Position numbers and translations under genes: made by a program. The notes under the pieces are model-generated. The model worked only from the letters and a program-made list of their open reading frames with translations, had not been told where the DNA came from and searched no databases. This document shows, piece by piece, positions 1 through 21,709 of a stretch of 21,709 nucleotides of DNA. The stretch spans positions 1 through 21,709 of the IMG/VR virus record IMGVR_UViG_3300008259_005613; one strand, 5' to 3'. The stretch is from a virus. Numbering within the stretch: position 1 is the stretch's first letter; each line of letters opens with the position of its first letter.

Positions 1-3000
1 GCTCTGCTCTAACAGAAGCCGGAGCAAACGCTGCGGCGACAGCGTTTAGGGGCACCGCTATTCTCAGCACTCTTTTGAGTGGATTTGATATTGCGGGGGC
101 AAAAGATCGCGGCGAAGCTCCTGGTCGAGCGTGGATGCGAAATATTTTCATGAATGCTGGCGCCTATGCAATGGCGCTTCCTGACGCTGCCGCCTTCTTA
201 GCCTCAGGCGGATCAGGCACCCTTGCAATTCTTGCGGCAAACGCAGCGGTTGCCACAGGAATGGATATCGCTGGCGGCAGTATTTACGACCTTCTCTTTG
301 GAAACGTCTGGGATGGAAAGCAAACACAGCAGTCTATTGATATGGGCCAGAAGAAAGACCTAGGCTTCTTTGGAAACTTGTTTAATTACAATCGCGGATT
401 CAACAACCCAGCTCCAAGGCGTACGCCAAAACCAACCTGGGGCGGCGGACGAGCTGAGGGCGGACCAGTTGATGTTGGCCGTGGATACGACGGGACGCTA
501 AGCTGGCTTGAGGACTACACCAACCCGGCCACCAGATTTATTCATCAGATTCTTCCGCCAATGATGAGCAACAGCAACTTGTCTGGCGCTGGCGGCTTTG
601 TTGATATTTTGAGTTCTCTTTACAGGGCTGGGCTGTCATCAATCATGCCTGGTCCGGATCTTGCTGACGCGTTAGCTAAGCTTGCTGGCTCTGGAAAGCT
701 TCCGGGACCACTTGAGGCCCTTGCTCGCAATATGTTGGGGCTGTCCCAGCTTTCTAATATTTCGCGCCCAATGAGCTTGCGAGACACTTACGAGCTTGAC
801 CCTGACCTCGATATTGTAAAGCGTGGTATTTGGGGGCGAGGATCACGGCCGCTGTCTACCGGCGTGGTGCGCTCTTACGTTGGCGGACTTGCTGGTGATT
901 ACGATCATTTGGGCAACCTGCTAAGCGGAAACGCCACCGACCTTATGGGCTTGGGCGGGGCAGACCCAATTACTTCGGTTGTTACCCGCGCAGGATACAA
1001 GCCACCTCATGTGACCACCTCATTCAATGACTTCCTATCCGGCGACTATCACTTCCCATTCTTTGCAACCGACCCAGCCTCATTCCCAGAAAGCAAGAGG
1101 ATAGGCTTTACTTCCGCTCTTCCCCAGAGCGGCAAGGGCGCAACCAGGCTTGCAGAGTTCCAAATTCCTGGCGGCATTCCAATTGATCAGATTGAGACCA
1201 TCCTTGGTCTACCAACACTCATTGATGACAAAGACGGCTACCGGCCGTTTACTGATGCCGAAGCAAAAGCAAGGGCTGCCGCGCTTGCAGAAATGGGCTT
1301 TACCGACCTTGGGAATCACGCAGTTGCGACTGACGTTCTTGAGAGGCAAATTGCCGACTGGCGAGCCTCATCTGGCGCTATGCCGGTTGACCCAGAGCAA
1401 ATTCTTGCAGCAAAGGAAGCGATTCTTCGCCAGCAGGAGACCGGTCGCATCCTTGCCGGCCGAGCGGCGCAAGCGGCATCTCTCTTGCGAGCAGGGGTGT
1501 TTACCAGCATAGACGAAGCCGCGCTTTACGCCGTTACTGCCGACGAGCACTTTAAGGGAGTACGCGCTAAAAACATTGACATCGAGGCGGAGCGAACTCG
1601 TGTTGCCAGGACAATTCCTCGCGGCGGATCCTTTGCGGACAAGGTTGCACTGATCCGAGAGCGCCTGCTCTACACCCAGCCAGAACTCTTCAACCTTGGG
1701 CCTGCAGAAGCCCCAGTGCTCAGGATGCTACTTGATGATGCACCGGTAATCAAGCCGGCTGACGGGGAGCAGCTCGACCTGTTCAAATTAAAGTCGGCTA
1801 GCGGATTTGATGTGGAGGATATTGAAGGCAGTCGACGTGATTCTGTGCGGATGAAGCCGGGCGAAGGCTTGAGTGGCCGCCCAGTTCGAACCGGAACAAT
1901 CTTAAAGCAACCGTCATCATTCCTTGGAAAGATTTTACACAATATGGGAGTTTTTGGTGACGCAGGTGATACAGAGGTTGATGGCCTTAGAGCTGGGCGC
2001 ACGCGCGGGGCAACGGGCAAAGATTTCCCTGGATACCTAGCAGATACCATTAGTTTTGACTGGGGAGATCTGCGAATACCACATGACTATCTGGACTATG
2101 TAGACATGAGCGCCATTGATGCAATATCTAGCGCTGCTCGTCTAGGGTTGGCCGCCGCACCATTTGGCATGTTTGACCCCTCTGATCCAAGCAAGCGTTT
2201 ATTGATTGATGTCGTAGATCAAATGAGTGGAGAATCCTTTTCGGGAAGGGTTACCCGCTCAGATCAAAATTATATACAGTTGAATAAGAACGATCTAAAA
2301 AGGGGGCAGCCGGAAACAATTCCCCATGAGATTGCTCACCTTATGCATAATAGAGCATTTGGTCCCCTTAAGATTCTACGTTCTCTCGTTGACCCTGAAA
2401 ATCGTAAACTTTTTTCTTCAAGATATAAAGAAGTACTGGGAATTTTTGAAGCTAAGAAAGATCCTAGTTACGATAATCAAGGACGGCCTAAGGGTCACCC
2501 GGATTATAAGAAAGAACCATACACAATTAAAGACACATTGTTTGGTCATGTAAGTGCTCTAAAAGCAGCTTTCTATAAAGTTCAAGAACGTTTGCAGCGT
2601 GAGCAACTTATTCGAGCCTACGAACGCGCTCTTATTGCTCAGGGATTAAACCCGGGCCAAGCTCGAGTTGAGGCTGCAAGTCTGCCGCTTAACCATGGCC
2701 TGGGGAAAAATGCCAAGGGATATCCGTACAGCATGCCGAGGGATTTCCCGCGCCCAACTACGTATGCCGGGACAGCCTGGCATGAACATTTTGCTGAGCT
2801 CTTTATGGGCCACACCATGGAATCTTTGCCAGATGATATGTTCACGATGCGAAACCCATTAAGTGAAAACCTCTCCGGTCGGAGTCGAACACATGACTTC
2901 CGAACCCGTTCACCCGAGTGGCAGGCTCAGCAAGGCGTACTGCAATCTGCTGGGCAACTGCTTGACCTTGAATACACAAGAGGTGTAGGCGACGTAGCAT

Positions 3001-4031
3001 CTGGTGCAATACCCGACCCTGATGGGCTTTTTGAACGTGCTATGGCAGCCAGGTCTCAATACCCAAGAGAATTGGCAAGAGAGTATGGTTGGAGGCCAAT
3101 TCAAGACCCTGGTGCGGTTGCTGCTGGATTGATGCCGGAGCTGTACACCTCTAAATCTCGCAGAATCCCCGTACCGCTTACTGGCGGCAAGCTAAACCTT
3201 AAGGGAATGCAGACTTGGACCCCAGACCAGGGCGGGTTTAAGGGCGGAGCCGCCAGGGCAGATAGTTTTGTCGGCACTAAAAAAGGTAACTTCCTCTCCG
3301 GATTCCTTGCAGACGTTGCAATGATGGCCTCTACTGGTAACTTTGATTTTGCCCAACTTATCCCCTCTTTAGGATTTAACCTCCTTAGCATCCTGCCAAA
3401 GATTGGCGGGCCGGCAGCCATGGTTGCAGGACTGCTGACGACGGGGGCTACTGGCGGCGACATGGGCCGAGCAATGGCCGGAACTATTGGCTCGCTGGTT
3501 GGCGGCCTCCTTGGCAATTTGATTCCAATCCCATTTATTGGCGGTATGATCGGCAGCATCCTTGGTGGAATGCTTGGAGACTTTATCTATACAAACTTCA
3601 TCAACCCAGAATCGGCAAATCAGGGAACCCAAATGATCCAGGCCGGTGGTGGGGCGGTGTACAACGTTGGCCCGAATGCCCCGTTCCCATTTAATGGGCC
3701 ATCGAATGTTCCATTCTCCGGCGAGCCACTTAGAAAGATTGGCGGTCGAGCCTTCGGCGGCGCCGTTCGGCCTAACGTTGGCTACATGGTCGGAGAGCGC
3801 GGCCCAGAGCTTCTTGTCCCAGGCGGCCTTGGCGGAAGCATTATCCCGAACCACAAGATGCGTGGGCCAGAAGGCGTGACCGCCGTGGGCGGCGGCCAAA
3901 CCGTAAACGCATCTGTAGTAATCAACAACCCAAGCGTCTCTAACGCCGGAGATATTGATAAACTAGCCAAGAAGGTAGCAGAGGCGCAAACGCGCGCTCT
4001 ACGCTCAGCCGGATATGCAAGGCCCTCATAA
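1..4031 (+). CDS. Tail tape-measure protein, 5'-partial, with embedded zincin-like domain
   Basis: The frame is open to the left window edge, so the true start lies outside; a TTG at 75 is only the first possible internal start. Residue numbers here count from that TTG (1318 residues to the stop). The C-terminus carries the motif GYMVGERGPELLVPG (about 1236-1250) followed by a short IIPN segment, which is typical of tape-measure proteins. Before it lies a Gly-rich hydrophobic stretch (about 1070-1175), as expected for the part that enters the host membrane. The protein sets tail length and is ejected ahead of the DNA. Oddly, residues about 745-910 contain HEIAH (H751) and later WHEHFAELF (E904xxA907). 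Together these match the HEXXH + ExxA layout of gluzincin metallopeptidases, which would provide two His and one Glu zinc ligands. The DNA here is AT-rich compared with its flanks. Whether the peptidase is active is unknown. The hub gene follows after 3 nt. Confidence 0.88.
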   Translation, partial: SALTEAGANAAATAFRGTAILSTLLSGFDIAGAKDRGEAPGRAWMRNIFMNAGAYAMALPDAAAFLASGGSGTLAILAANAAVATGMDIAGGSIYDLLFGNVWDGKQTQQSIDMGQKKDLGFFGNLFNYNRGFNNPAPRRTPKPTWGGGRAEGGPVDVGRGYDGTLSWLEDYTNPATRFIHQILPPMMSNSNLSGAGGFVDILSSLYRAGLSSIMPGPDLADALAKLAGSGKLPGPLEALARNMLGLSQLSNISRPMSLRDTYELDPDLDIVKRGIWGRGSRPLSTGVVRSYVGGLAGDYDHLGNLLSGNATDLMGLGGADPITSVVTRAGYKPPHVTTSFNDFLSGDYHFPFFATDPASFPESKRIGFTSALPQSGKGATRLAEFQIPGGIPIDQIETILGLPTLIDDKDGYRPFTDAEAKARAAALAEMGFTDLGNHAVATDVLERQIADWRASSGAMPVDPEQILAAKEAILRQQETGRILAGRAAQAASLLRAGVFTSIDEAALYAVTADEHFKGVRAKNIDIEAERTRVARTIPRGGSFADKVALIRERLLYTQPELFNLGPAEAPVLRMLLDDAPVIKPADGEQLDLFKLKSASGFDVEDIEGSRRDSVRMKPGEGLSGRPVRTGTILKQPSSFLGKILHNMGVFGDAGDTEVDGLRAGRTRGATGKDFPGYLADTISFDWGDLRIPHDYLDYVDMSAIDAISSAARLGLAAAPFGMFDPSDPSKRLLIDVVDQMSGESFSGRVTRSDQNYIQLNKNDLKRGQPETIPHEIAHLMHNRAFGPLKILRSLVDPENRKLFSSRYKEVLGIFEAKKDPSYDNQGRPKGHPDYKKEPYTIKDTLFGHVSALKAAFYKVQERLQREQLIRAYERALIAQGLNPGQARVEAASLPLNHGLGKNAKGYPYSMPRDFPRPTTYAGTAWHEHFAELFMGHTMESLPDDMFTMRNPLSENLSGRSRTHDFRTRSPEWQAQQGVLQSAGQLLDLEYTRGVGDVASGAIPDPDGLFERAMAARSQYPRELAREYGWRPIQDPGAVAAGLMPELYTSKSRRIPVPLTGGKLNLKGMQTWTPDQGGFKGGAARADSFVGTKKGNFLSGFLADVAMMASTGNFDFAQLIPSLGFNLLSILPKIGGPAAMVAGLLTTGATGGDMGRAMAGTIGSLVGGLLGNLIPIPFIGGMIGSILGGMLGDFIYTNFINPESANQGTQMIQAGGGAVYNVGPNAPFPFNGPSNVPFSGEPLRKIGGRAFGGAVRPNVGYMVGERGPELLVPGGLGGSIIPNHKMRGPEGVTAVGGGQTVNASVVINNPSVSNAGDIDKLAKKVAEAQTRALRSAGYARPS

Positions 4032-4034
4032 ACT

Positions 4035-7000
4035 ATGAACTACACTGGAACGATAACAGTAAAGATTAAGCCTAAGCTCCTAAACCATACCCCCGTGGGC
4101 GATGGCTTCTTTGACATTACCCGGCGCATTAGCTTCTCTGATGGGGGCTCAGACAGCGGTTTTACTTTTACTGAAAGCTCTGACGGATCGCTAGGCGAGG
4201 CCCAGTTTACGATGTTTACCATGTTCCCGCTGTCGATCACTGACTGGTCTAGCTACTCTGGGGCAACAGTAGATGACAAGCTGCAGGCAGCGCTAAACGA
4301 CCACACGTTTGACTTTGAAATTCCGCCGCGCGCTGAAGTTCAAATCTACGAGGACGCCACCCTGATCTTTGGCGGCATTGTTACCGAAGTTTCTCGGATG
4401 CGCGAAGGCGGTACGATTACCACCCAGGTAAAGTGCTCCGACTACACCGCTCTTCTTGACGAGATTGTTATTGACCGTTACAAAGCTCCGTTTGAAGTCT
4501 ACGACTACGAAATTATTCGCGGAGGCTACCAAACAGACCCAAACAAGAATGGCGTTAGCATCACTAAGGTGTCAAACGGCAGTAGCGGCGGCGGAAGCCC
4601 AACCCGGCTAATCACCGTCAATCTTAATGATGCGCACGACCTTATTGTCGGCCAAAAGGTAGACATCGACCGAACAAACAACTACGACGGCGAGTGGACG
4701 GTGGCATCTATCCTCTCTATTGTCAGCTATACCGCGTCAAGCGCATCTGCCTATGCTGGCCCGGTTTCGGCAAGCAATGCGGCCAGGGCTGGCACCACAG
4801 CAACGATTACAGTTGGCACGCACGCATTTGTTGCCGGGGACACGGTTGAGGTTGACCTTGCGACTGGCCCTACTGGATACGAGGCCCTCAACGGCACTTA
4901 CAAGATTACAAGTGTTGTAGCAAACACCTCTATTACTTACACCACAACGACCACTGGAACTGTTACATCAGGAGCAGCTACCGGAACGGTTGAGATTCCC
5001 GATGAAAAGTCTGGGCGCAGCACCCCGTGGACAATTTCGTTCTTTGAAGACGTCAACAAGACCGACCCATACTCCGGGACCTCTATGGCTCATAGCATTA
5101 ACTACGACAGCCCAACAAGCACAACCGGATATGTGGTTACGGGAAGCAATGATTGGCGCTTTAGCCCAATCAATTATGTTCCCGATGCACAGTTCCCAGA
5201 GAAGCTAGGGGCAAAGATCTTCCTTCCATTGTCCGAGGGTAAGTCAGACAGCGGCAGAGGTTCTGTTGATCCTCGTGCCTTAGACTCTGATCAGCGCCTC
5301 CGCCTATATCACCTTGAGAACGAAATTACTGAAAGGTACATTATCTCTAGCGTGGGGGCGTACGACCCGGCCACGAACTATCTTGACATTACAACGCTCT
5401 CAGAGCACAACTTTCAAAGTGGGCAGTTTTTGAATTTTGAAAATATTGACTCTAACCGCCCGGGGGACTATACGGCAGGATTTCGCGGGAATCGCCAATC
5501 CTCAACCACGCTTCGTCTAGAGACAGATGTTGACCCTGGTGTATCCGTCCGTTCGGCAACCATAACTGCGGCAAGCTGCGACGGAGAATACACTACGTAT
5601 ACCTGCAACAACACTTTCACAATTGGCGATGCAGTTGGAATCTCTGGAATTACCGAGTCTGGTAGCACTGGCAGCTACAACGTGGCGTTTTCTATAATTG
5701 AAGAGGCAACCGCGACAACGTTTAAGATCAAAAACCTTACGCTTAAAACATACACAAGCGGTGGTACTGCTTATACCTCTACTGTTGTTTTGAGAAAACC
5801 CCAATCGCTTAGTGCGGGGGAGTTCCGATCTAAAATTATTGCCGCAGAGCGAGTTGCCGGAATAACAACTATTTGGTACGACAAAAACCCTACGTATTTT
5901 AACATTGGAGATGTTGTGCATATTAACGGCACTACAACCTACGATGGAAGGTTTACCGTGACTGAAACGGGTTCGGCCGCAGGCAATCCAGGAAACCCAG
6001 CACGAGTAAAGAAAGTTTATAGAAAAGGCAATAAGGCATGGATTGAACTTGGAAAAAGCGCCTCTCCTTACGCATCGTGGGCAGCTCATCCGTTTAATAA
6101 GGGGGACGTTGTTGACATTACACTTCCATCTGAATTTACCGACCCTAGTTCTGCTATTGGCAACTGGGCTGGAAATGAAAAAACAATTACTGCAGAAGGG
6201 TTGGTCAGCGGAAGCGCGCAGCATGCCCGTATTCACTATGACAACACCGGCCCAAACACCAAGTATGGCGCTTACAGCCTAACTAATACCCAAGCTGCAG
6301 CTAGCTCAGTTACGTTTTCGACAACAAGATATTCTTACATTAAATTTGCTGATGAACGAGCGGACACAACCACGTCCGGTCGCGCAGTTCCCGCCGGCTC
6401 GTATGTATCGTTCCCGTATTACCTATGGTCCGCCGTTACTGGCGGATCTCGTACCAAAAACAACTATAGCCTTCAACCAATGATGCCAAATGACTCTCTT
6501 TCGTATATAGGGGGTAGGCAATCTGTTGACTTTGAGTCAAGTGAGTTAATGGGGATGTCAACAGCAAAATCTGCAACGCCATTGAGGCTCCAGCGCACAT
6601 CAAACAAGGTTACAATTCGCACGGTAGCACCCCACTCCTTTACTGAGGGAGAGACGGTAAATATTTTGCTATCTAATCCGGCCCCAATTAGCACCATGAA
6701 CGGGTCCTACCAAATTACCGAAGTAACTGTTGGGACAATCTCCTTTGCTTTTGCCGGAACAGACATCGCTGATCAGGCAGTGGCTGGCTCGGTGAATTCT
6801 CAGGGGCTTGGTTTTTATGCGGCAGGAAACAAAATGAGCTGTATTTGTGTGATTCAACCAGAGTCCCTTCCCGCTGCGTCGACATACCGCACAATTTGGC
6901 ACCATGGATCTTCTTATACCGGACAGCGTCGAGAGCTGCAGATAAATAGCTCTGGGGCTATTTGCTTTATGACTATTAATAACGGCGCCTCTACCGAAAG

Positions 7001-9392
7001 GTTTACCACGACCCTTACTCTTGTTGCGGGTGAGACAGCAATTATTTTTGTTTCATACGACCCAACTACCGGTGCACTAGTTATACAAAAAAATGATGAG
7101 GCTGCTCAGTCCACAACGGTATCCACAAAAGCAGCTACTAACTTGGGAGGCTTTGCAGTTGGCGTTGGCTACGCAACATCAGGGCCTCTTGGTCATAGCT
7201 CTTACTTTGATGGACTTATCGGAAACATTTACATTATTGATCGCGTGCTACCCGAGTCAGAGCGAGAACAGCTTATCGCATGGATGGCTCATTACTTTAC
7301 AATTTCTGACCTGCTAGCGGAAGATAATGCCTATCGATACCTGGCGGATCATCCAGGTAAGACTGAGGTCAATCGAGCAAAAGAGCCCTTTAATGGAATG
7401 ACTCTTCGCCAGGCTATGGACTACATCTGCAAGAAAACCGGTTCGCAGTATTGGGTTGATGCAAACAAGAACCTACACTACCAACGTCGAGATGTAAAAA
7501 ATGTTGTAGAGAATCCTACATTTGAGGACAAGTTTGGTAACGCAAGCACAATCGAGTGGGTCTTCGGTGGTTCGTTTGCCCTAAGCACACGATCTTCGGG
7601 CCCATATGGCTACGGATACTCCGCTACGGCCACCGGCTCTACCGAGTCGATTGCGCGCTCGCAATACTTTACGGTTACTGCCAACCAGGTTTACTTTGCA
7701 TCCACAATGATAAAGACCGGCAATAGCACAAAAAGCTTCTTGAAGATTCGTTTCTATAACGCATCAAACACTCAGGTTGGCACAGATGAGCTTATTGGCG
7801 CTGGGGTAACTATTAATAACTCCTGGGAAAAGATGTGGGGGATGGTCAAGGTTCCAACAACAGCCGGCATCGTAAAGGCTGCTCTGATTTTTCATCACAC
7901 AAGCCATAGCTCCAGCTACACGGACTATTACGCTGACCCGAATGTGGTGCAGATCACTTCGGAGTACGGATTTGCCGACTACGGCATTGCCCCTGGATCA
8001 AGTACCGAGATGCTGTTTGACTCAGCCCTAAATACTATTTTGCCAATGAAGACGTATGAGTCTCCAAAAAACATTAGTCAGCACGGAACACAGGCCAACA
8101 GGTTGTACCTATACGGCAAGGCCACGACAATCGACCAGTCAAACAATATCCTTACCCCTTATGTTGCTACCGGACAAGTCATCCGCTACACTTTCGATTT
8201 TGTGCAGGGTGTTTGGGATACCCACGGAAAAATTGTTGAAGCTTCAAAAACAAACGCTGACGTAGAGACGGTTGAAGACGCGGTGCTGGCCGCCAGCTCA
8301 TTTTGGGTAGAAAACGGAAAGAGCATTGAGTCTTATGAATTTGAGCACCCCAATAACGCAAGCGCTGGGAGGCTTACGGTCGGCTCCATTATTCCATTCC
8401 TCTGGAGCGAGGTTGGCATTACGGAGCCCCTGGTTGTAAAGAGCCAAACTGTTAACATTATTGGTGGGGAGATTTATTACAGTGTGCAGCTTGCTGGGGA
8501 GCCGGCCTTCCAAAAAAACGCCATTATCCTTGTGCAAAAAGAATACCTTACCGAGAACCTTGGTACTGGTAAAGTTAACTACATGACTCCAACTGCGGTT
8601 TCAAACTTGATTGTTAGGTCTGTTGACCAAGACAACCAGGCAGCTACGACGGCTCAAAACGTTGTGCTGACTTGGCTAACAGATCAAACTAACCCTCGAA
8701 ACAAAAAGATTGTTAACTACGACGTTCAGCGACGCGAGCAACAGCTTGTAAAAACATCTCTTGGAAAAAGCAATTTTGCAGCAGCCGCCGCTGTGGCCAG
8801 AACAGCCGCCGCAGCTGGGGCGGCCGCAACAGTCACATTAAAGTTTAAGAAGTCAACTGGTATTGACATTGGGACATATATTAACGTTAAGAATGGCCAG
8901 TTTGGCAAAAAGTCGGCTACCAACCCCTCAATTGCTGGTGATTTTGAAGTTACCAGCGTTTCGGCTGACGGAAAAACAATTACTTATCTGCAGTATGCCC
9001 CAGCAACTTCTGGCATTGTTGAAATTAAACCAAAAAACAACACAACAGCCAGCAATCAGCTTCCGGCTATTGTCGTTAGCTGGTATGAAGACGTTGCCGC
9101 AACTACCATATCAATTTGGAAGACAATTGCAAATCCGACTAATACCACCTATACTGACGACGGGCGCGCCAAGTCAACAGATACCGGCACCGGCGTTGAC
9201 ATTAAATACCGGTATCAGTACCGAGTCCGAGCGGTTGCAAAAGACCCTGCTAGCCCTACCATTCCGATAAGTGGCCCCTGGACGTACGTTCCAGCCGGAT
9301 ACCTCAGCACATCAAGCAATCTGGGGTGGATTTATATTACTGACAACTTGGTATTGTCAGGCGTAGTTGAGCCAACGGAGGCAACTGGATGA
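4035..9392 (+). CDS. Giant tail hub / minor tail protein with LamG-like and carbohydrate-binding-like insertions
   Basis: This 1785-residue protein starts at ATG 4035, 3 nt after the tape-measure stop, with only a weak AAGG upstream, so it is probably translationally coupled. Residues 1-165 resemble the N-terminal part of phage hub/minor tail proteins (an IYEDATLIFGGIVTEV-type strand pair). A hub-like helical segment returns at about 1091-1150, so the middle looks like a large insertion. Within it, degenerate beta-modules recur at about 191-240, 253-319, 449-500, 504-565, 605-650, 667-730 and 856-920. A LamG/concanavalin-like jellyroll covers about 933-1090 (ends with FDGLIGNIYIIDRVL). Residues 1160-1315 look like a CBM/galactose-binding beta-sandwich. 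A fibronectin-like segment begins near 1518, followed by an Ala-rich stretch and one more module (about 1596-1655). The likely role is a baseplate hub at the tail tip carrying glycan-binding domains. Domain names rest on pattern recognition only. Its last 4 nt overlap the fibre gene. Confidence 0.8.
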   Translation: MNYTGTITVKIKPKLLNHTPVGDGFFDITRRISFSDGGSDSGFTFTESSDGSLGEAQFTMFTMFPLSITDWSSYSGATVDDKLQAALNDHTFDFEIPPRAEVQIYEDATLIFGGIVTEVSRMREGGTITTQVKCSDYTALLDEIVIDRYKAPFEVYDYEIIRGGYQTDPNKNGVSITKVSNGSSGGGSPTRLITVNLNDAHDLIVGQKVDIDRTNNYDGEWTVASILSIVSYTASSASAYAGPVSASNAARAGTTATITVGTHAFVAGDTVEVDLATGPTGYEALNGTYKITSVVANTSITYTTTTTGTVTSGAATGTVEIPDEKSGRSTPWTISFFEDVNKTDPYSGTSMAHSINYDSPTSTTGYVVTGSNDWRFSPINYVPDAQFPEKLGAKIFLPLSEGKSDSGRGSVDPRALDSDQRLRLYHLENEITERYIISSVGAYDPATNYLDITTLSEHNFQSGQFLNFENIDSNRPGDYTAGFRGNRQSSTTLRLETDVDPGVSVRSATITAASCDGEYTTYTCNNTFTIGDAVGISGITESGSTGSYNVAFSIIEEATATTFKIKNLTLKTYTSGGTAYTSTVVLRKPQSLSAGEFRSKIIAAERVAGITTIWYDKNPTYFNIGDVVHINGTTTYDGRFTVTETGSAAGNPGNPARVKKVYRKGNKAWIELGKSASPYASWAAHPFNKGDVVDITLPSEFTDPSSAIGNWAGNEKTITAEGLVSGSAQHARIHYDNTGPNTKYGAYSLTNTQAAASSVTFSTTRYSYIKFADERADTTTSGRAVPAGSYVSFPYYLWSAVTGGSRTKNNYSLQPMMPNDSLSYIGGRQSVDFESSELMGMSTAKSATPLRLQRTSNKVTIRTVAPHSFTEGETVNILLSNPAPISTMNGSYQITEVTVGTISFAFAGTDIADQAVAGSVNSQGLGFYAAGNKMSCICVIQPESLPAASTYRTIWHHGSSYTGQRRELQINSSGAICFMTINNGASTERFTTTLTLVAGETAIIFVSYDPTTGALVIQKNDEAAQSTTVSTKAATNLGGFAVGVGYATSGPLGHSSYFDGLIGNIYIIDRVLPESEREQLIAWMAHYFTISDLLAEDNAYRYLADHPGKTEVNRAKEPFNGMTLRQAMDYICKKTGSQYWVDANKNLHYQRRDVKNVVENPTFEDKFGNASTIEWVFGGSFALSTRSSGPYGYGYSATATGSTESIARSQYFTVTANQVYFASTMIKTGNSTKSFLKIRFYNASNTQVGTDELIGAGVTINNSWEKMWGMVKVPTTAGIVKAALIFHHTSHSSSYTDYYADPNVVQITSEYGFADYGIAPGSSTEMLFDSALNTILPMKTYESPKNISQHGTQANRLYLYGKATTIDQSNNILTPYVATGQVIRYTFDFVQGVWDTHGKIVEASKTNADVETVEDAVLAASSFWVENGKSIESYEFEHPNNASAGRLTVGSIIPFLWSEVGITEPLVVKSQTVNIIGGEIYYSVQLAGEPAFQKNAIILVQKEYLTENLGTGKVNYMTPTAVSNLIVRSVDQDNQAATTAQNVVLTWLTDQTNPRNKKIVNYDVQRREQQLVKTSLGKSNFAAAAAVARTAAAAGAAATVTLKFKKSTGIDIGTYINVKNGQFGKKSATNPSIAGDFEVTSVSADGKTITYLQYAPATSGIVEIKPKNNTTASNQLPAIVVSWYEDVAATTISIWKTIANPTNTTYTDDGRAKSTDTGTGVDIKYRYQYRVRAVAKDPASPTIPISGPWTYVPAGYLSTSSNLGWIYITDNLVLSGVVEPTEATG

Positions 9393-12300
9393 GCTTTGAT
9401 ACAATCTCTAGCGGGAAGATCCGCGCTGACTCCGGCAACTCCTTCTCTGCTATTGAGATCGACGGCGACGGCGTTCTCATTAGAAATGCTGCTGACGAGA
9501 CCAACTCTTCTGGCGAGCTAGTTCTTGCTGGCAGCGAAGAGGTTCTCTCTTCCAATCGAGTAAGCGGGACTACTATCAACGCCAGCTACATTAAGACAGG
9601 CGTTCTTGACGCCAACCTGATGCGTGCCGGCCTTATCCAGACCGTGCCTTCCTGGAACACCAAGTGGTACGGCGCTCCAGAGGACCACGCGGCAGTGCAG
9701 ATGGGCTTTACCGGCGGCTCCATTGCGGCGACTGCCGTCTCAACCGGTACTGGCACCGTTAGCCTTACGCTCCCTGGCGGGCATGGCCTTATTACCGGCG
9801 ACTACGTTCGGGTATCCGGCCTGTACTTCACTACCGGCACCCTCTTGGGAGGCGTCGGGCTTAATCTTCCAACCAACGGCCCGCTTGACTATGCCTCTGC
9901 AACTGTTGCCACAAACACCCTGACCTACAGCAAGGCTGACATTACTAGCGGCCTGACTGCCTCTACTGCATCAACCGTGTACGTCGGCAAGGCGCACACC
10001 ATTACGGCTGTTGTCCGCTCCTTTGACAATCCGGACAACCCAGCGGAGCTCAGTACTGTTGTTGTTACTACCAGCGCGGCGCACGGCTTGTCCGTAGGAA
10101 ACTACGTTGAGCTTGTCAATGTTGCCCCTACCATTGATGGAGTTGCTTACATCAGCGCGGTTACCAGCACCACCTTTACCTTTAAGCAGCGCTTTGGCGA
10201 CGACGTTAACCTAGACCTCTCTGCCTCTGAGTTTGACCTGCCAAGCCTTCTTGCCCCAGTAGCCATCAAGGTCCTCAAGTCCTACACCCAGAACGCTGAC
10301 GGCTCCATTCACATTACATCCGGCACCGTCGACTCCACGCTTATTGTTGGCGAGATCTCCGCAACCGAGATCACCATTGGGTCCGGGGGAGACGTTGTTC
10401 GCGTCGGCAACTACCCAGACGCTATCACCCCAACCTTCCAAGGCATCTGGGCCGGAAGCGCCAACCCATCCACGGCTAAATTCTCGGTCAACACGCTTGG
10501 CGCCCTTTCCGCCACGAGCGGAACCATCGGCGGGTACACACTTGCTTCCGATAGGCTAACAAATGTATCAACCACTGGCTTAATAAGATATGCCGGACTT
10601 ATCGATACGGCTGCAGACGATGGTCTTGCCTTCTTTGCTGGCGCCACATCAACAGCGGGAGCAGAGGCAAAGTTCAGCGCCACTAACGCCGGCGCTGTCA
10701 CAGCAGCAAACCTTACTGTAACCGGTGGGAGCATAGACTTTGGTGACTTCAGGCTAAGCACGGACGGGCAAATCACCAAGGACCTTGTTCTCTCGCAAAA
10801 GTTTATCAAAAATGAAAATGGCGTTGAGCTAATTTCAACAGAATCGGATGGTGGGTCTGCGTACGCCCTTGGACCAGGGCTAAATCGAGCAATTGAGACC
10901 GGCATTATTAATGGGGACTTTGGCTCAATTCCCCCAACGGTCGGGTCAAACTTAAATAACTCCACAAACCGTTTGCCGTACTTCACAACCGAAGTCAGCC
11001 ACAACGACGCCACCGCCCCCTACGTACAGGCGGTTGCGGATGCGACCGCCGCATCGGGGCACGTCTTGCGCTTCACCATCCCGAGCGGCGCCGCAGTCGG
11101 GCGCTACGCCCGCATCGTGCGATATGTCGCCGTGCCCGGCTCAGCCGCCCGCACGTGGACAAATCAGCCCCGCGCAGCTTGGCGCAACGCCACGGGCACC
11201 ACCAAAACGCAGGCCGTCGTCACGGTCAGAACGCAGTACTACCAAAATGACGGCACCACCACCACGGGCACGCAGGGCACCAATGTCAGTAAGACCTTCG
11301 CAGACGTATTCGCCTCGACCTCCGCTTACGAAACGCAGGCTAACCCCAACGGCACCGGCGCAATCCCCACCGACGGCGCCTACCTCAAGATCGAGGTAGG
11401 AGTACAGGTCAGCGTGGAGACCACGAGCGCTATGACCGTAGACCTCACCGAGGTGCGCTACGACAGAGGGCTTATCCAACTGCTCCTCGCCGATCAAGTA
11501 GACCCGAGCGCCTACGGATACGGCGTCATCTACCTCAACAACGGCACCATGTGGATCAGGGCCAATGAGTTGGGCCCGAGCGGTACTAACCCCACAATTA
11601 CACTTAGCGCAGCCAGCGGAAACATTAACCTAGATTCTACCGGCACGGGGATAGTTATGGCCAATGGGTCTGAGGTAGCCCTAAAGAGCGACCTGACCGG
11701 AACCACATTTGACCTTACCGGAGACGTGACGGTTACGGCTGGATCGTTTACTCTTGGCGCAGCAAATAGCTACGTTGTATCTGTTGACAATGATAGCCAC
11801 ACGCACACTGCGGCGACACTCGGTATTCTTACCTTGGGAACTGATACGACTGGCAACTATGTTGGCGGCATCACATCTGCAAACTCACTTATTGCCGTCA
11901 GCGGGTCTGGCGGTGAGGGCACAACAGTTACGCTAACTGCCGACACAACGCCAACATTTACTAGCGTTACAACAACAAGTCTAAACGTAAGCGGCGTTGC
12001 TGACTTTACAAACGACGTAGATCTTGGAAATGATAGTACTGATGAGATTAAAGCAACCAGCCTGTATGGAACTACGGATATTACAAACTCACAAACGCTC
12101 AGGATTTACACCGTGGGTAATACAAGTCCTTCAAGGATTCCGTGGAGAATTTTCCGAGAAACATCCAGCGAAAGATTTAAGGTAAACATTACTCCGATGC
12201 CGGATTCTGAGGAAATCCTGGAAATTCAACCGTCTTCATACTACGATAAGGCCCAATACGAAACCAGCCCAAGCACTGCCGCTTTAAGTTACGGACTAAT

Positions 12301-12481
12301 TGCAGAGCAAATGGAAGAAAATCCAATTGGGTCTAAATTTGTTTCACACAATGAAGATGGTTTGCCCGAAACAGTTCAATATGACAAACTTGTAGTTCCT
12401 CTGCTGTCAGCCATGCGGGCACTCCGCACGCGCATTGAGGAGCTTGAGGCCAAGGTCGCAGAACTCGAGACCGGTGCCTAA
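9389..12481 (+). CDS. Tail fibre with C-terminal S74 intramolecular chaperone
   Basis: This 1030-residue protein overlaps the hub gene by ATGA and has a good ribosome site (GGAGG at 9376-9380). The N-terminus includes an INASYIKTGVLDANL-type segment, common where fibres attach to hubs. Two copies of the hub's beta-module follow (about residues 110-195 and 205-270). The C-terminal 105 residues match the peptidase S74 chaperone of endosialidase-type fibres. S926-S-E-R-F-K931 fits the S-x-x-R-x-K Ser/Lys dyad, GLIAEQM and VQYDKLVVPLLSAM are the conserved core, and the end is a coiled-coil-like helix. From the family, the chaperone folds the trimer and then cuts itself off just before S926. Residues about 533-728 are encoded by DNA of about 73% GC on sampled lines, against about 40% on both sides, which suggests a recombined domain. 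It probably binds the receptor. Confidence 0.86.
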   Translation: MSFDTISSGKIRADSGNSFSAIEIDGDGVLIRNAADETNSSGELVLAGSEEVLSSNRVSGTTINASYIKTGVLDANLMRAGLIQTVPSWNTKWYGAPEDHAAVQMGFTGGSIAATAVSTGTGTVSLTLPGGHGLITGDYVRVSGLYFTTGTLLGGVGLNLPTNGPLDYASATVATNTLTYSKADITSGLTASTASTVYVGKAHTITAVVRSFDNPDNPAELSTVVVTTSAAHGLSVGNYVELVNVAPTIDGVAYISAVTSTTFTFKQRFGDDVNLDLSASEFDLPSLLAPVAIKVLKSYTQNADGSIHITSGTVDSTLIVGEISATEITIGSGGDVVRVGNYPDAITPTFQGIWAGSANPSTAKFSVNTLGALSATSGTIGGYTLASDRLTNVSTTGLIRYAGLIDTAADDGLAFFAGATSTAGAEAKFSATNAGAVTAANLTVTGGSIDFGDFRLSTDGQITKDLVLSQKFIKNENGVELISTESDGGSAYALGPGLNRAIETGIINGDFGSIPPTVGSNLNNSTNRLPYFTTEVSHNDATAPYVQAVADATAASGHVLRFTIPSGAAVGRYARIVRYVAVPGSAARTWTNQPRAAWRNATGTTKTQAVVTVRTQYYQNDGTTTTGTQGTNVSKTFADVFASTSAYETQANPNGTGAIPTDGAYLKIEVGVQVSVETTSAMTVDLTEVRYDRGLIQLLLADQVDPSAYGYGVIYLNNGTMWIRANELGPSGTNPTITLSAASGNINLDSTGTGIVMANGSEVALKSDLTGTTFDLTGDVTVTAGSFTLGAANSYVVSVDNDSHTHTAATLGILTLGTDTTGNYVGGITSANSLIAVSGSGGEGTTVTLTADTTPTFTSVTTTSLNVSGVADFTNDVDLGNDSTDEIKATSLYGTTDITNSQTLRIYTVGNTSPSRIPWRIFRETSSERFKVNITPMPDSEEILEIQPSSYYDKAQYETSPSTAALSYGLIAEQMEENPIGSKFVSHNEDGLPETVQYDKLVVPLLSAMRALRTRIEELEAKVAELETGA

Positions 12482-12540: not shown

Positions 12541-13275
12541 ATGAAATACAAGGTTAAGTCCCAGCTCGACCACGAGGAAAAGGGTGGGATTCTCGACGAT
12601 TGCGGTCCGTCTTCTGTGGCCGCAGCAGTGTCTTGGGCGTTTAAGTACGCTCCAGGCAAGGATTTCTCCGCCGCAGACGGCATTGCCGCCAAGGCAAAGG
12701 CTACCGGCTTTGTTGAAAAGCAGGGCGTCAGCGACAACGGCTCAACGCTTGCGGACCTGATCAAAACCGCACGGGTTCTTGGAGCCGAAGCTCGCTGGGC
12801 AACGGATTGGAACGACGTTATCAACTCTGCCAAGGCCGGCGCGGCTTTGGGCGTGTGGGTTGAGCAGCCTGCTGGCTATCCTAAGGGCTTGGAAGTTTCC
12901 GCCTGGCACGCTAAGTGGCAGCGCTGGTGGTGGGTCAAGCAGAAGCAGCCTAACCGCACGTATGGCCACATGACTTCAGCCGTATACGATCCAATCGACG
13001 GCTGGCAGTGGGTATGCCCAACGCGTTCCGGCAAAGGTGCCGAACAGTTTGGCGTCAAGATCGATGAGGCAACCCTCAAGATCCTTGCTGACTCCAAGCG
13101 CGTAAGCAAAAAGCACGTTGCGCCACCCCACAAGCATGTTATTATCATCTCAGCACCAAAGGGTTGGGTTGCTCCCAAGCCTGAGGCGGCTCCTGTGCCC
13201 CCGGCGGCACCAGTAGCACCAGCGCCCGTAAAGGCGCCTGTAAGTCCGGCTAAGTGCCCGACTTGCGGTAAGTAA
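12541..13275 (+). CDS. C39-like cysteine peptidase, probable endolysin
   Basis: The 244-residue product starts at ATG 12541 after AAAGGGG (about 12528-12534), a good ribosome site lying partly inside the palindrome GGGGTACCCC. The N-terminal domain carries DCGPSSVAAAVSW (C21), the nucleophile motif of C39/papain-like peptidases. The expected histidine and acid follow in YGHMTSAVYD (H143, D150). No signal peptide is visible, which fits a cytoplasmic lysin released by a holin. Residues about 207-236 form a Pro/Ala-rich linker, and the protein ends in KCPTCGK, a single CxxC rather than a full zinc ribbon. Position between the fibre and a holin gene supports a lysis role, most likely cutting peptide bonds in the cell wall. 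It could instead process phage proteins. No amidase or muramidase domain is seen. Confidence 0.7.
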   Translation: MKYKVKSQLDHEEKGGILDDCGPSSVAAAVSWAFKYAPGKDFSAADGIAAKAKATGFVEKQGVSDNGSTLADLIKTARVLGAEARWATDWNDVINSAKAGAALGVWVEQPAGYPKGLEVSAWHAKWQRWWWVKQKQPNRTYGHMTSAVYDPIDGWQWVCPTRSGKGAEQFGVKIDEATLKILADSKRVSKKHVAPPHKHVIIISAPKGWVAPKPEAAPVPPAAPVAPAPVKAPVSPAKCPTCGK

Positions 13276-13289
13276 TAGAAGGAGTACAC

Positions 13290-13688
13290 ATGAGCGCCAT
13301 TAAGAACGCAGTTCTATGGATCATGGCTAACACGGGTATCGACGAGATGCTCCTGGAGGCCGCACGCGCCTTTATCGCAACGTCGATTGCCGTTGCGCTT
13401 GGTCTTGGCATCCCGCTGCTTGATATTTCAGGCGGGGATTTCCGAACCGTAGTATCGGCTGGTCTGGCCGCCTGCTTGCAGGTTGTCGTCCGCGCCCTAA
13501 ACCCTGAAGATGCCAAGTTTGGCGTTGGCAAGGCAAAGGTCGCCCGAGCTGATGAGAAGGCTGCTGCCGAGAGCACGGCCCACATTCAGGGTACAGCTAT
13601 TGACACGGACGGCGATGGTATTGCCGACGAGCTTGCTGGAACCCTTGCAGGTGAGTCATTCCCAGACGAAGACGACCACAAGGCCTAG
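13290..13688 (+). CDS. Holin with calcium-loop-like C-terminal tail
   Basis: The 132-residue product starts at ATG 13290 after AGAAGGAG (13277-13284), a strong ribosome site, 14 nt behind the lysin gene. Two hydrophobic segments (about 24-45 and 52-69) are followed by RALNPEDAKFGVG, a sequence I associate with actinophage holins of the r1t-like type. It should form membrane lesions that release the lysin. The tail is charged. Residues 105-114 (DTDGDGIADE) match the D-x-D-x-D-G-x-x-D calcium loop seen in thrombospondin type 3 repeats, which is unusual for a holin. The acidic end (PDEDDHKA) is also notable. The gene is last in the plus-strand block and ends 22 nt before the terminator stem. Confidence 0.72.
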   Translation: MSAIKNAVLWIMANTGIDEMLLEAARAFIATSIAVALGLGIPLLDISGGDFRTVVSAGLAACLQVVVRALNPEDAKFGVGKAKVARADEKAAAESTAHIQGTAIDTDGDGIADELAGTLAGESFPDEDDHKA

Positions 13689-20033: not shown

Positions 20034-21435
20034 CAATTACCGCGAGTGGTTGCGCGTTAAGGCGCAGACATCCGACGCCGCCTTTGCCGAGTATGTTAGC
20101 GGGCTTGTCTTCCCTAGGCACTTGCGTGAAATGGAACAGTTCCTTGACGAAAACGACCGTGGCCTAGTCCTCATGCCCCGTGGTCATGCCAAGACTACGC
20201 AGCTGATTCACCGGGCGGCTCGAATGATTGGCGTAACACACGGCAAGGTCCGCATTGGCGTACTGACAGCCGTCATGTCTGACGCCCTTGCTCGATCTCG
20301 GGCAATTAAAGCCCTGATTGAGTCACCGTACTTTGCCGAAGTCTTCCCCTGGGCCAAAGAAGGCGTGATCGGCTCTAAGTGGACTGATGAGGTTTGGACG
20401 ATTAAGGGCGCAAACATGGGCAAGGATGCCACGTGCTTTGCCGACGGCCTTGGCTCCATTAAGCCGGGTGCACGGTTGGACATCCTTTTTGCGGACGACA
20501 TGGTGGGCATGAAGGAAAACGCCACCGCCGTGCAGCGCCAGAAGGCAAGCGAGACGTACTGGCAGGTGGTTGACCCGATGCTTGTGCCAAAGGCTAAGCG
20601 CTGGTACATCGGCACGCGATGGCACGAAGACGATTTCTACGCAGAGCTTGTCAAGAAGAATGTTGCGCACTATCAGAGGCGAGCGGTAGAGGGCGACCAG
20701 GTTCTTTGGCCGGAGATGTACACGATGGCCGACATGGAGCAAAAGAAGATGGAGCTTGGTACGCCAATCTTCATGTTGCAGTTCCAGAACGACGTCACAT
20801 CCATGGGCGGCAACATCTTCCGCTTTGACAACTTCCAGCGGGTAGACAAAGTCCCTGAAGGGTCTCGCCGCCTTGGCGTCGACCTTGCATCCTCTGCTTC
20901 ACAAAGAAGCGACTACACCGCCGCCGTGGAGATTGTGGTTGATGAGCAACACAACATTTATATCGTTGGCAGCTGGAAAGCCCGGCTGCAAGAAGGGCAC
21001 AGGGCCTGGCTTACGGGCATTGACTCAAACGGTGGGCTTGACTACGACTCTGGGCCGCGTGCCCTATGGCCACAGCGCCTGGTTGGAATCAAAGGGCTTG
21101 ACCCAGAGCTTGACGACGCACGATTCTTTGAGTCGATCAACATTGAGGCCGTCCAGCACCAGAGCACATTTGTTCGGGAGATTCTCTCCACGACCACTCT
21201 TCCGGCTCGACCCGTCCGACCAGACCGCGATAAAGTTACGCGATCTAGGGCCCTTGCGGCTAGGTACGAAGCCGGAAAAGTGTTCCATGTTAACGGCGCT
21301 CCCGGAATTGACGATCTTGAGATGCAGCTTATGGCATTCCCAAACGGCTCACACGACGACGTTGTGGACGCCCTGGTGTACGCATCTGATCTTGGCGGAG
21401 ACGGTTTTTACTTCACCTCAGCCAAGCGCTACTAG
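20014..21435 (+). CDS. terL: Terminase large subunit
   Basis: ATG 20014 gives 473 residues; GTG 20020 is an alternative because AAGGA at about 20007-20011 is spaced better for it, and TTG 19993 is unlikely. Numbering from ATG 20014, the ATPase has Walker A PRGHAKTT (55-62), Walker B LDILFADD (D161, D162) and the coupling motif GTRWHEDD (about 200-207). The C-terminal RNase H-like nuclease shows GVDLASS with D290, then SDYTA with D300, and HDDVVDALVYA (D448, D449) as expected metal ligands. The enzyme cuts concatemeric DNA and drives it into the procapsid with terS. The short ribosome spacing and overlap suggest coupling to terS. Its stop interlocks with that of the convergent subtilase. Confidence 0.96.
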   Translation: MTVSVNNNYREWLRVKAQTSDAAFAEYVSGLVFPRHLREMEQFLDENDRGLVLMPRGHAKTTQLIHRAARMIGVTHGKVRIGVLTAVMSDALARSRAIKALIESPYFAEVFPWAKEGVIGSKWTDEVWTIKGANMGKDATCFADGLGSIKPGARLDILFADDMVGMKENATAVQRQKASETYWQVVDPMLVPKAKRWYIGTRWHEDDFYAELVKKNVAHYQRRAVEGDQVLWPEMYTMADMEQKKMELGTPIFMLQFQNDVTSMGGNIFRFDNFQRVDKVPEGSRRLGVDLASSASQRSDYTAAVEIVVDEQHNIYIVGSWKARLQEGHRAWLTGIDSNGGLDYDSGPRALWPQRLVGIKGLDPELDDARFFESINIEAVQHQSTFVREILSTTTLPARPVRPDRDKVTRSRALAARYEAGKVFHVNGAPGIDDLEMQLMAFPNGSHDDVVDALVYASDLGGDGFYFTSAKRY

Positions 21436-21709
21436 CACATCCACCAATCATCGGTGCAAAGATCCGGGGCAAACTCATCTCCCGAGAACATTTGCAACAA
21501 AGCCTTGGTGGTGTTAAGCCTCTGGGCAATGGTCATGGTGTTAGAAGTTGCCTCCATCACCATATTCAAAGCCTCTTCGGTAGTGACCCCATTCTCTGCT
21601 GCGTAGGCCGCAATAGCCCCAGAAACATACGGAGCTGAGAACGATGTGCCGCTTACCAGCCTCTCGTCGGTTGGGCCCATGGCCAGCACGTTGGCACCCG
21701 GAGCATAAA
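21432..21709 (-). CDS. Subtilisin-like serine protease (S8), C-terminal part only
   Basis: The minus-strand frame is open to the right window edge, so the start and most of the catalytic domain lie outside. The visible 91 codons read YAPGANVLAMG and then SGTSFSAPYVSGAIAAY, the conserved APGxxV strand and catalytic-Ser block (GTSxSAPxVSG) of subtilases. A helix (TTEEALNMVMEATS) follows as in the family. The end has a short extension with a CTDDWWMC tail (two Cys, two Trp). Phage subtilases are uncommon. It could process virion proteins, be secreted, or be cargo. The stop TAG overlaps the terL stop in CTAG (21432-21435), and no terminator separates them. Confidence 0.85.
   Translation of the reverse strand, partial: YAPGANVLAMGPTDERLVSGTSFSAPYVSGAIAAYAAENGVTTEEALNMVMEATSNTMTIAQRLNTTKALLQMFSGDEFAPDLCTDDWWMC

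Follow-up and report, generated by a model that had tools for sequence, protein, structure and literature searches.

A putative gluzincin-type zincin domain in a very large siphophage tape-measure protein with polyvalent-type domains

Introduction

It is already known that phage tape-measure proteins (TMPs) can carry M23 and muramidase domains and, in one case, an RNA polymerase, that a tape-measure-like CIS effector carries a HEXXH-bearing DUF4157 domain, and that polyvalent zincins occur in other virion proteins. Among the domains of polyvalent proteins, zincin metallopeptidases (MPTases) are the most frequent and DdrB-ParB is confined to the phage type; the core of these MPTases comprises an N-terminal helix, three strands, the HEXXH helix and a later helix with a Glu (Iyer et al. 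2017, PMC5512222). A zincin is also part of the ejected, giant virion RNA polymerase of N4 and the Schitoviridae (PMC8472413, PMC5512222), and the zincin domain of the related phage CB1 matched the metalloprotease PPEP-2 (PMC8472413). Among the TMPs, the 5002-residue protein of Thermus phage P23-45 carries a terminal enzyme and, at some distance along the chain, a metallopeptidase (PMC10770324), while T5 pb2 is muralytic and has a reported C-terminal metallopeptidase motif near a hydrophobic stretch (PMC10038345). In bacterial injection systems, Tme and other DUF4157 effectors as well as VgrG2b fuse a HEXXH domain to a tape-measure-like or spike protein (PMC11126660, PMC8213781, PMC6899460).

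Here we analyzed a 21.7-kb fragment of an IMG/VR contig (21,709 nucleotides, hereafter the window), in which the original prediction had placed a zincin domain inside a TMP. The locus resembles the polyvalent MPTases in its HEXXH helix and in a later Glu that follows a variable insert, and also in its multidomain phage carrier, a DdrB-ParB-like domain, more than one MPTase-like domain and a virion-gene setting. It differs in its tape-measure backbone, since the text of Iyer et al. never mentions ‘tape measure’ (PMC5512222); it has no Pfam match to these MPTases, of which 12 clades are published. With the N4 enzyme it shares a zincin within an ejected giant virion protein, but that enzyme is packaged in the head of short-tailed phages and is not a tape measure. 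The metallopeptidase of the P23-45 TMP is an M23 peptidase (Pfam, 7.5e-22) and the enzyme at its end is the RNA polymerase, whereas the motif annotated in T5 pb2 is of the M14 type. Neither TMP contains HEXXH anywhere, which rules out both as direct relatives and agrees with the remark in the original prediction that this type of zincin was unfamiliar in TMPs. Finally, Tme, the other DUF4157 effectors and VgrG2b belong to bacterial systems, the DUF4157 domain of Tme is N-terminal, and no Pfam DUF4157 match was found here.

Results

Tape-measure identity and features of the window

The plus-strand frame that enters at the left edge of the window (base 3) stays open until 4031 and encodes 1342 residues. 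PHROG profiles of the tail tape measure match its C-terminus (1.2e-5 and 1e-4). The whole gene is present in a related 80.8-kb contig, G005 (18624-32015, 4464 residues), where the middle of the protein matches TMP_3 (1e-7, under the curated cut-off) and phrog_1686 (2.4e-11), and where the protein also matches phage TMPs by tblastn. The G005 gene is preceded by genes for the head, the connector and the tail. Based on the TMP profile matches and on its position as the largest ORF of the tail module, we conclude that the window ORF is the C-terminal part of a very large siphophage TMP. Searches of IMG/VR found relatives in six further contigs only; no similar protein was found in GenBank phages, and GTDB genomes gave no further relatives. 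The residue numbers of the original prediction were counted from a TTG at 75 and need correction, because the gene starts outside the window. The features of the window are as follows:

3-4031, plus strand: giant TMP, C-terminal 1342 residues; gene start outside the window (4464 residues in the relative G005)
1833-3089, plus strand: block exchanged as a unit between phages, ends approximate (45-55% DNA identity to the related contig L003; flanks 87-93%)
2049-3029, plus strand: zincin-like domain (zincin-2), conserved from ISFDWGD to beyond the LDLEYTRG helix (alignments, model and structural matches)
2325-2339, plus strand: HEIAH, predicted zinc-binding and catalytic motif on the active-site helix (conservation, model)
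2463-2537, plus strand: insert of 25 residues that lies between the helices of the two motifs and is missing from the L003/L004 allele (alignments)
2781-2804, plus strand: HEHFAELF, whose E at 2784 is proposed to complete a gluzincin-type zinc site as third ligand; E-H-F-A is invariant in the relatives
2802-2822, plus strand: invariant F-x-GHT-x-E, with H2811 or E2820 as alternative ligands (alignment)
3384-3557, plus strand: hydrophobic, glycine-zipper-like segment that separates the zincin from the C-terminal tail (positions transferred from G005)
3792-3812, plus strand: VGERGPE, second copy, a motif that recurs near tape-measure C-terminal ends (first copy at G005 residue 2861)

Conservation of the two motifs

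The first motif is ...PETIPHEIAHLMHN..., in which the H, E and H of HEXXH are encoded at 2325, 2328 and 2337, respectively (window frame 3), and the second reads ...GTAWHEHFAELFMGHT..., with E at 2784. As originally proposed, the two share one frame about 150 residues apart, the measured distance from the second His of HEXXH to E2784 being 149 residues. The equivalent residues of the 4464-residue G005 protein are H3896, E3897, H3900 and E4049. Shuffling this protein 20,000 times produced HExxH in 1.0% of the resulting sequences; in 0.06%, an ExxA[E/D] came no more than 200 residues after the HExxH. At the DNA level the HEXXH pattern by itself is not unusual for the window; therefore, conservation is the stronger evidence. 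The H, E and H of HEXXH together with E-H-F-A are kept in 6/6 relatives, that is, in all seven contigs including the window, so that both motifs pass the conservation check that had been suggested for them.

This retention spans considerable divergence. The L003/L004 allele is 48% identical to the window over the domain, and within the 30 residues around HEXXH this most divergent allele shares only 7/30 (23%) with the window, three of the seven being the H, E and H themselves (hypergeometric, 0.009). Between the motifs the L003/L004 allele is shorter by one stretch of 25 and two of 7 residues and longer by 3 residues, which brings its motif spacing to 113. Past the second motif, H2811 and E2820 in F-x-GHT-x-E are as invariant as E2784.

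Fold and class assignment

Single-sequence AlphaFold2 prediction of window residues 600-1033 gave an unusable model (pLDDT 35). A usable model was obtained for the L003 allele from five sequences; with a mean pLDDT of 46.8 it is useful for the first 100 residues only, over which the block-mean pLDDT is 54-73. The model contains a helix (20-34), three strands (51-56, 66-70 and 75-79) and a helix that bears HEVGH (87-101), and thus shows the N-terminal helix, three strands and HEXXH helix of the polyvalent MPTase core; the later helix is of low confidence, with a pLDDT of about 28-31 in the region of the distal Glu. In VIA-align the top structures were gluzincins, namely M1 enzymes, LTA4 hydrolase and M61, followed by M9 collagenases, with Wss1 lower. 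The L003 model matched PfA-M1 with a Z of 9.5 (rmsd 2.5 over 87 residues) and LTA4 hydrolase 3b7s with a Z of 9.1 (rmsd 2.7 over 89 residues), only slightly above the background Z of 7-8 stated for the method. E94 of the model falls on E296 of 3b7s, the residue named as mutated in the title of that entry, because the ends of the aligned range (103 to 305) place the two together. Foldseek alone gave no significant match in PDB and BFVD (best E 0.035), which leaves room for families absent there, and it ranked HECT domains above metalloproteases. Of the structural checks proposed originally, the prediction thus returned a zincin core with HEXXH, in a modest model, and Foldseek returned no significant match.

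Sequence searches of Pfam and PDB gave no match for the domain (best Zincin_1 at 0.09, below the cut-off), and Pfam at E up to 10 returned no polyvalent MPTase model, no M34-type and no M1 match. Pfam Peptidase_M23 was absent from the window TMP and the G005 protein, and matched the P23-45 positive control. The M1 aminopeptidases, like LTA4 hydrolase, M61 and M9, have a superposable core with HEXXH in register; however, we do not place the domain in the M1 family, where the arrangement is HEXXH-x18-E versus a spacing of 149 or 113 here, and the best match covers about 90 residues.

The modest model supports a zincin core whose active-site helix bears HEXXH, with the caveat that the model may in part reflect the motif itself. 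The domain is most likely a zincin metallopeptidase of the gluzincin type that uses the two His of HEXXH and the Glu of EHFA[E/D], and motif conservation, TMP profiles, the model and the structural matches together uphold the proposed zincin-type domain inside a tape measure. E2784 is the third zinc ligand suggested by conservation, and H2811 or E2820 could serve instead. The motif resembles that of M34-type (lethal-factor-like/PPEP) zincins, in which HEXXH is followed by E-x-F-A-E on a later helix. From these data we infer zinc binding, the third ligand and peptidase activity, as well as the place and time of action and the target of the domain considered in the Discussion.

A search with a DNA pattern for HEIGHL[MI]xN yielded zincin-like ORFs on four other contigs. 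A later ExxA[E/D] is present in three of these ORFs, including L035 (1576 residues, polyvalent-like) and L036 (stand-alone, 214 residues). Profile comparison with these zincins showed local similarity around HEXXH only. The L035 ORF, from 6372, combines a J-domain-like stretch with HEIGHLIDN...ELYADWI, a comparable zincin on a different carrier.

Exchange and fast change of the zincin block

Compared with L003, the window has a DNA identity of 45-55% within the block (G005 residues about 3731-4150), against 87-92% on its left side and 89-93% on its right. Synonymous divergence of the same pair ranges from 1.8 to saturated in the block, and outside it is about 0.3-0.5 in the clean flanks and 0.9 and 0.55 in two edge segments. 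L003 and G005 show the same block pattern, with flanks up to 97-99% identical. Because the divergent block sits in near-identical flanks, these alignments indicate that two old alleles of the block circulate by recombination.

For sequences of one allele, comparing the window with the others gives a pN/pS of 0.5, and comparing those others with each other gives 1.3-2.2; the excess over 1 is not significant (Fisher p 0.07-0.31), and we dropped positive selection as a firm claim. In the last 240 TMP residues dN/dS is about 0.01-0.18 in most comparisons. Quick change with the motif residues kept fits what would be expected of an enzyme facing a changing partner.

Polyvalent-type domains in the rest of the protein

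The window holds the C-terminal third of the protein only, and the HicA-like, DdrB-ParB-like and second HEIAH domains are known from the relatives. In G005 the TMP is laid out as follows (residue numbers):

128-196: HicA-like domain (phrog_2089, 2.4e-10)
231-343: DdrB-ParB-like domain (3.3e-5 in the isolated region; 24.5 bits versus a cut-off of 27.6)
851-928: Ala/Thr linker, low complexity
1023: second HEIAH domain (zincin-1), with an invariant H-x-DPMF 50 residues further on
about 1500-2650: TMP core
2861 and 4385: VGERGPE copies
2915-2981: Pro/Thr linker, low complexity
3804-4130: zincin-2
4249-4306: glycine-zipper-like hydrophobic stretch

The N-terminal domains are present in all three contigs compared there (G003, G004 and G005). 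The HicA-like region also gave weak tblastn matches annotated as HicA-like toxin (E 0.3). Zincin-1 and zincin-2 of the same TMP have no detectable similarity beyond HEIAH, and searches with the second HEIAH region found no relatives in plasmids or phages. The relatives thus combine disparate domains in one ORF with adjoining virion genes. Since zincin MPTases and DdrB-ParB typify polyvalent proteins and are here combined with a TMP, the architecture looks as if a tape measure had served as the base of a polyvalent protein or had received one as a graft, and the likeness to polyvalent-protein peptidases that the original prediction had raised gains from these further domains on the same polypeptide.

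The two VGERGPE copies are 1524 residues apart, as if a module that brought its own tail end had been added to extend the TMP; this apparent module stands after the Pro/Thr-rich linker.

Discussion

We propose that the zincin would ride inside the tail tube as part of the TMP and that, near the TMP end that leaves first, it would emerge at the host envelope on expulsion of the TMP and cut proteins there after ejection. Siphophage TMPs get expelled into the envelope (PMC6116005), and an early exit would be expected since the domain lies 330-660 residues from the C-terminus, the end located at the tail tip in T5 (PMC10038345). We give an even chance to the zincin being a protease delivered with the tape measure and cutting proteins. 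Host proteins, in the envelope or just inside, are a somewhat more likely target than the TMP itself, because the block is exchanged and changes fast. A precedent for a TMP-fused enzyme acting in the host is the P23-45 RNA polymerase (PMC10770324).

A wider version of this proposal, which we put forward tentatively, is that the TMP doubles as a polyvalent effector and that the tail ruler delivers an ordered set of enzymes. The N-terminal HicA-like RNase, the ParB-like nuclease and the first zincin would then enter behind the DNA. The C-terminal zincin would exit first and either prepare the envelope or cut the other domains free. Polyvalent injected proteins were previously known on head-packaged or MuF-type carriers, and a tape measure would be a different carrier; if true, it would join tail-length control to effector delivery and predict the order of arrival in the host. 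If a large part of the 4464 residues is cargo, how the size of this TMP translates into the length of the tail becomes a further question. The conserved HEXXH offers one clean mutation target. In the open-licence literature we found no phage tape measure that combines a HEXXH gluzincin with a polyvalent domain set, although absence from this literature is weak evidence.

The zincin may instead act on its own carrier, cutting the giant TMP in tail assembly or freeing the other domains after ejection. Cleavage of TMPs is documented, as the T5 TMP is cut after R1127 during morphogenesis and the lambda TMP is cut too (PMC10038345), and Iyer et al. proposed self-processing by MPTases as a logic of polyvalent proteins, with P1 DdrB being processed (PMC5512222). 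Here, one polypeptide has two HEXXH domains, and its low-complexity linkers (851-928 and 2915-2981 in G005) would be accessible sites for self-cutting. We regard self-processing as the main alternative, though a less likely one than a host target: the block swaps and evolves fast, yet the flanking TMP parts to be cut are conserved, and the N4 virion RNA polymerase is packaged uncut with its MPTase (PMC5512222).

Breaching of the wall, in which the zincin would open peptidoglycan cross-links at the entry site in the manner of the M23 and muramidase domains of TMPs, is improbable, even though the zincin is next to a membrane-prone segment and to the distal, C-terminal end of the TMP. Such a role is at odds with the usual targets of HEXXH gluzincins, which are ordinary peptide bonds. 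Wall-cleaving domains do occur in the TMPs of T5, TM4 and others (PMC6116005), but the TMP wall enzymes examined are of other types (M23 in P23-45, an enzyme without HEXXH in T5). In VgrG2b, the comparable protein studied in most detail, a tail-like spike carries a HEXXH domain that acts as a toxin in the periplasm but showed no peptidoglycan hydrolase activity (PMC6899460). Very unlikely is a dead or purely structural zincin fold, an ex-peptidase retained for binding or assembly: the domain changes fast, the motif spacing varies and the third ligand is a prediction only, but H, E, H and EHFA are retained in all relatives despite the saturated synonymous distance.

Neighboring genes

The TMP gene is followed in the window by a 1785-residue ORF (4035-9392) with a concanavalin-A-like lectin domain (Laminin_G_3, 2.5e-7) and no PHROG match, and by a 1030-residue tail protein (9389-12481; PHROG, 1.8e-14), at whose C-terminus an S74-like intramolecular chaperone scored 0.0012, below the cut-off. 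The 244-residue ORF at 12541-13688, which in G005 starts ...DDCGPSS..., looks C39-like by eye and has no Pfam match; together with the short ORF that follows, which contains hydrophobic stretches, it is possibly a lysis pair. In G005, a Subtilase-family protein (S8, 3.3e-21; L021:13647-14606) is encoded on the opposite strand directly past the terminase, and an open minus-strand ORF at the right end of the window (21432-21707) occupies the place that matches this gene.
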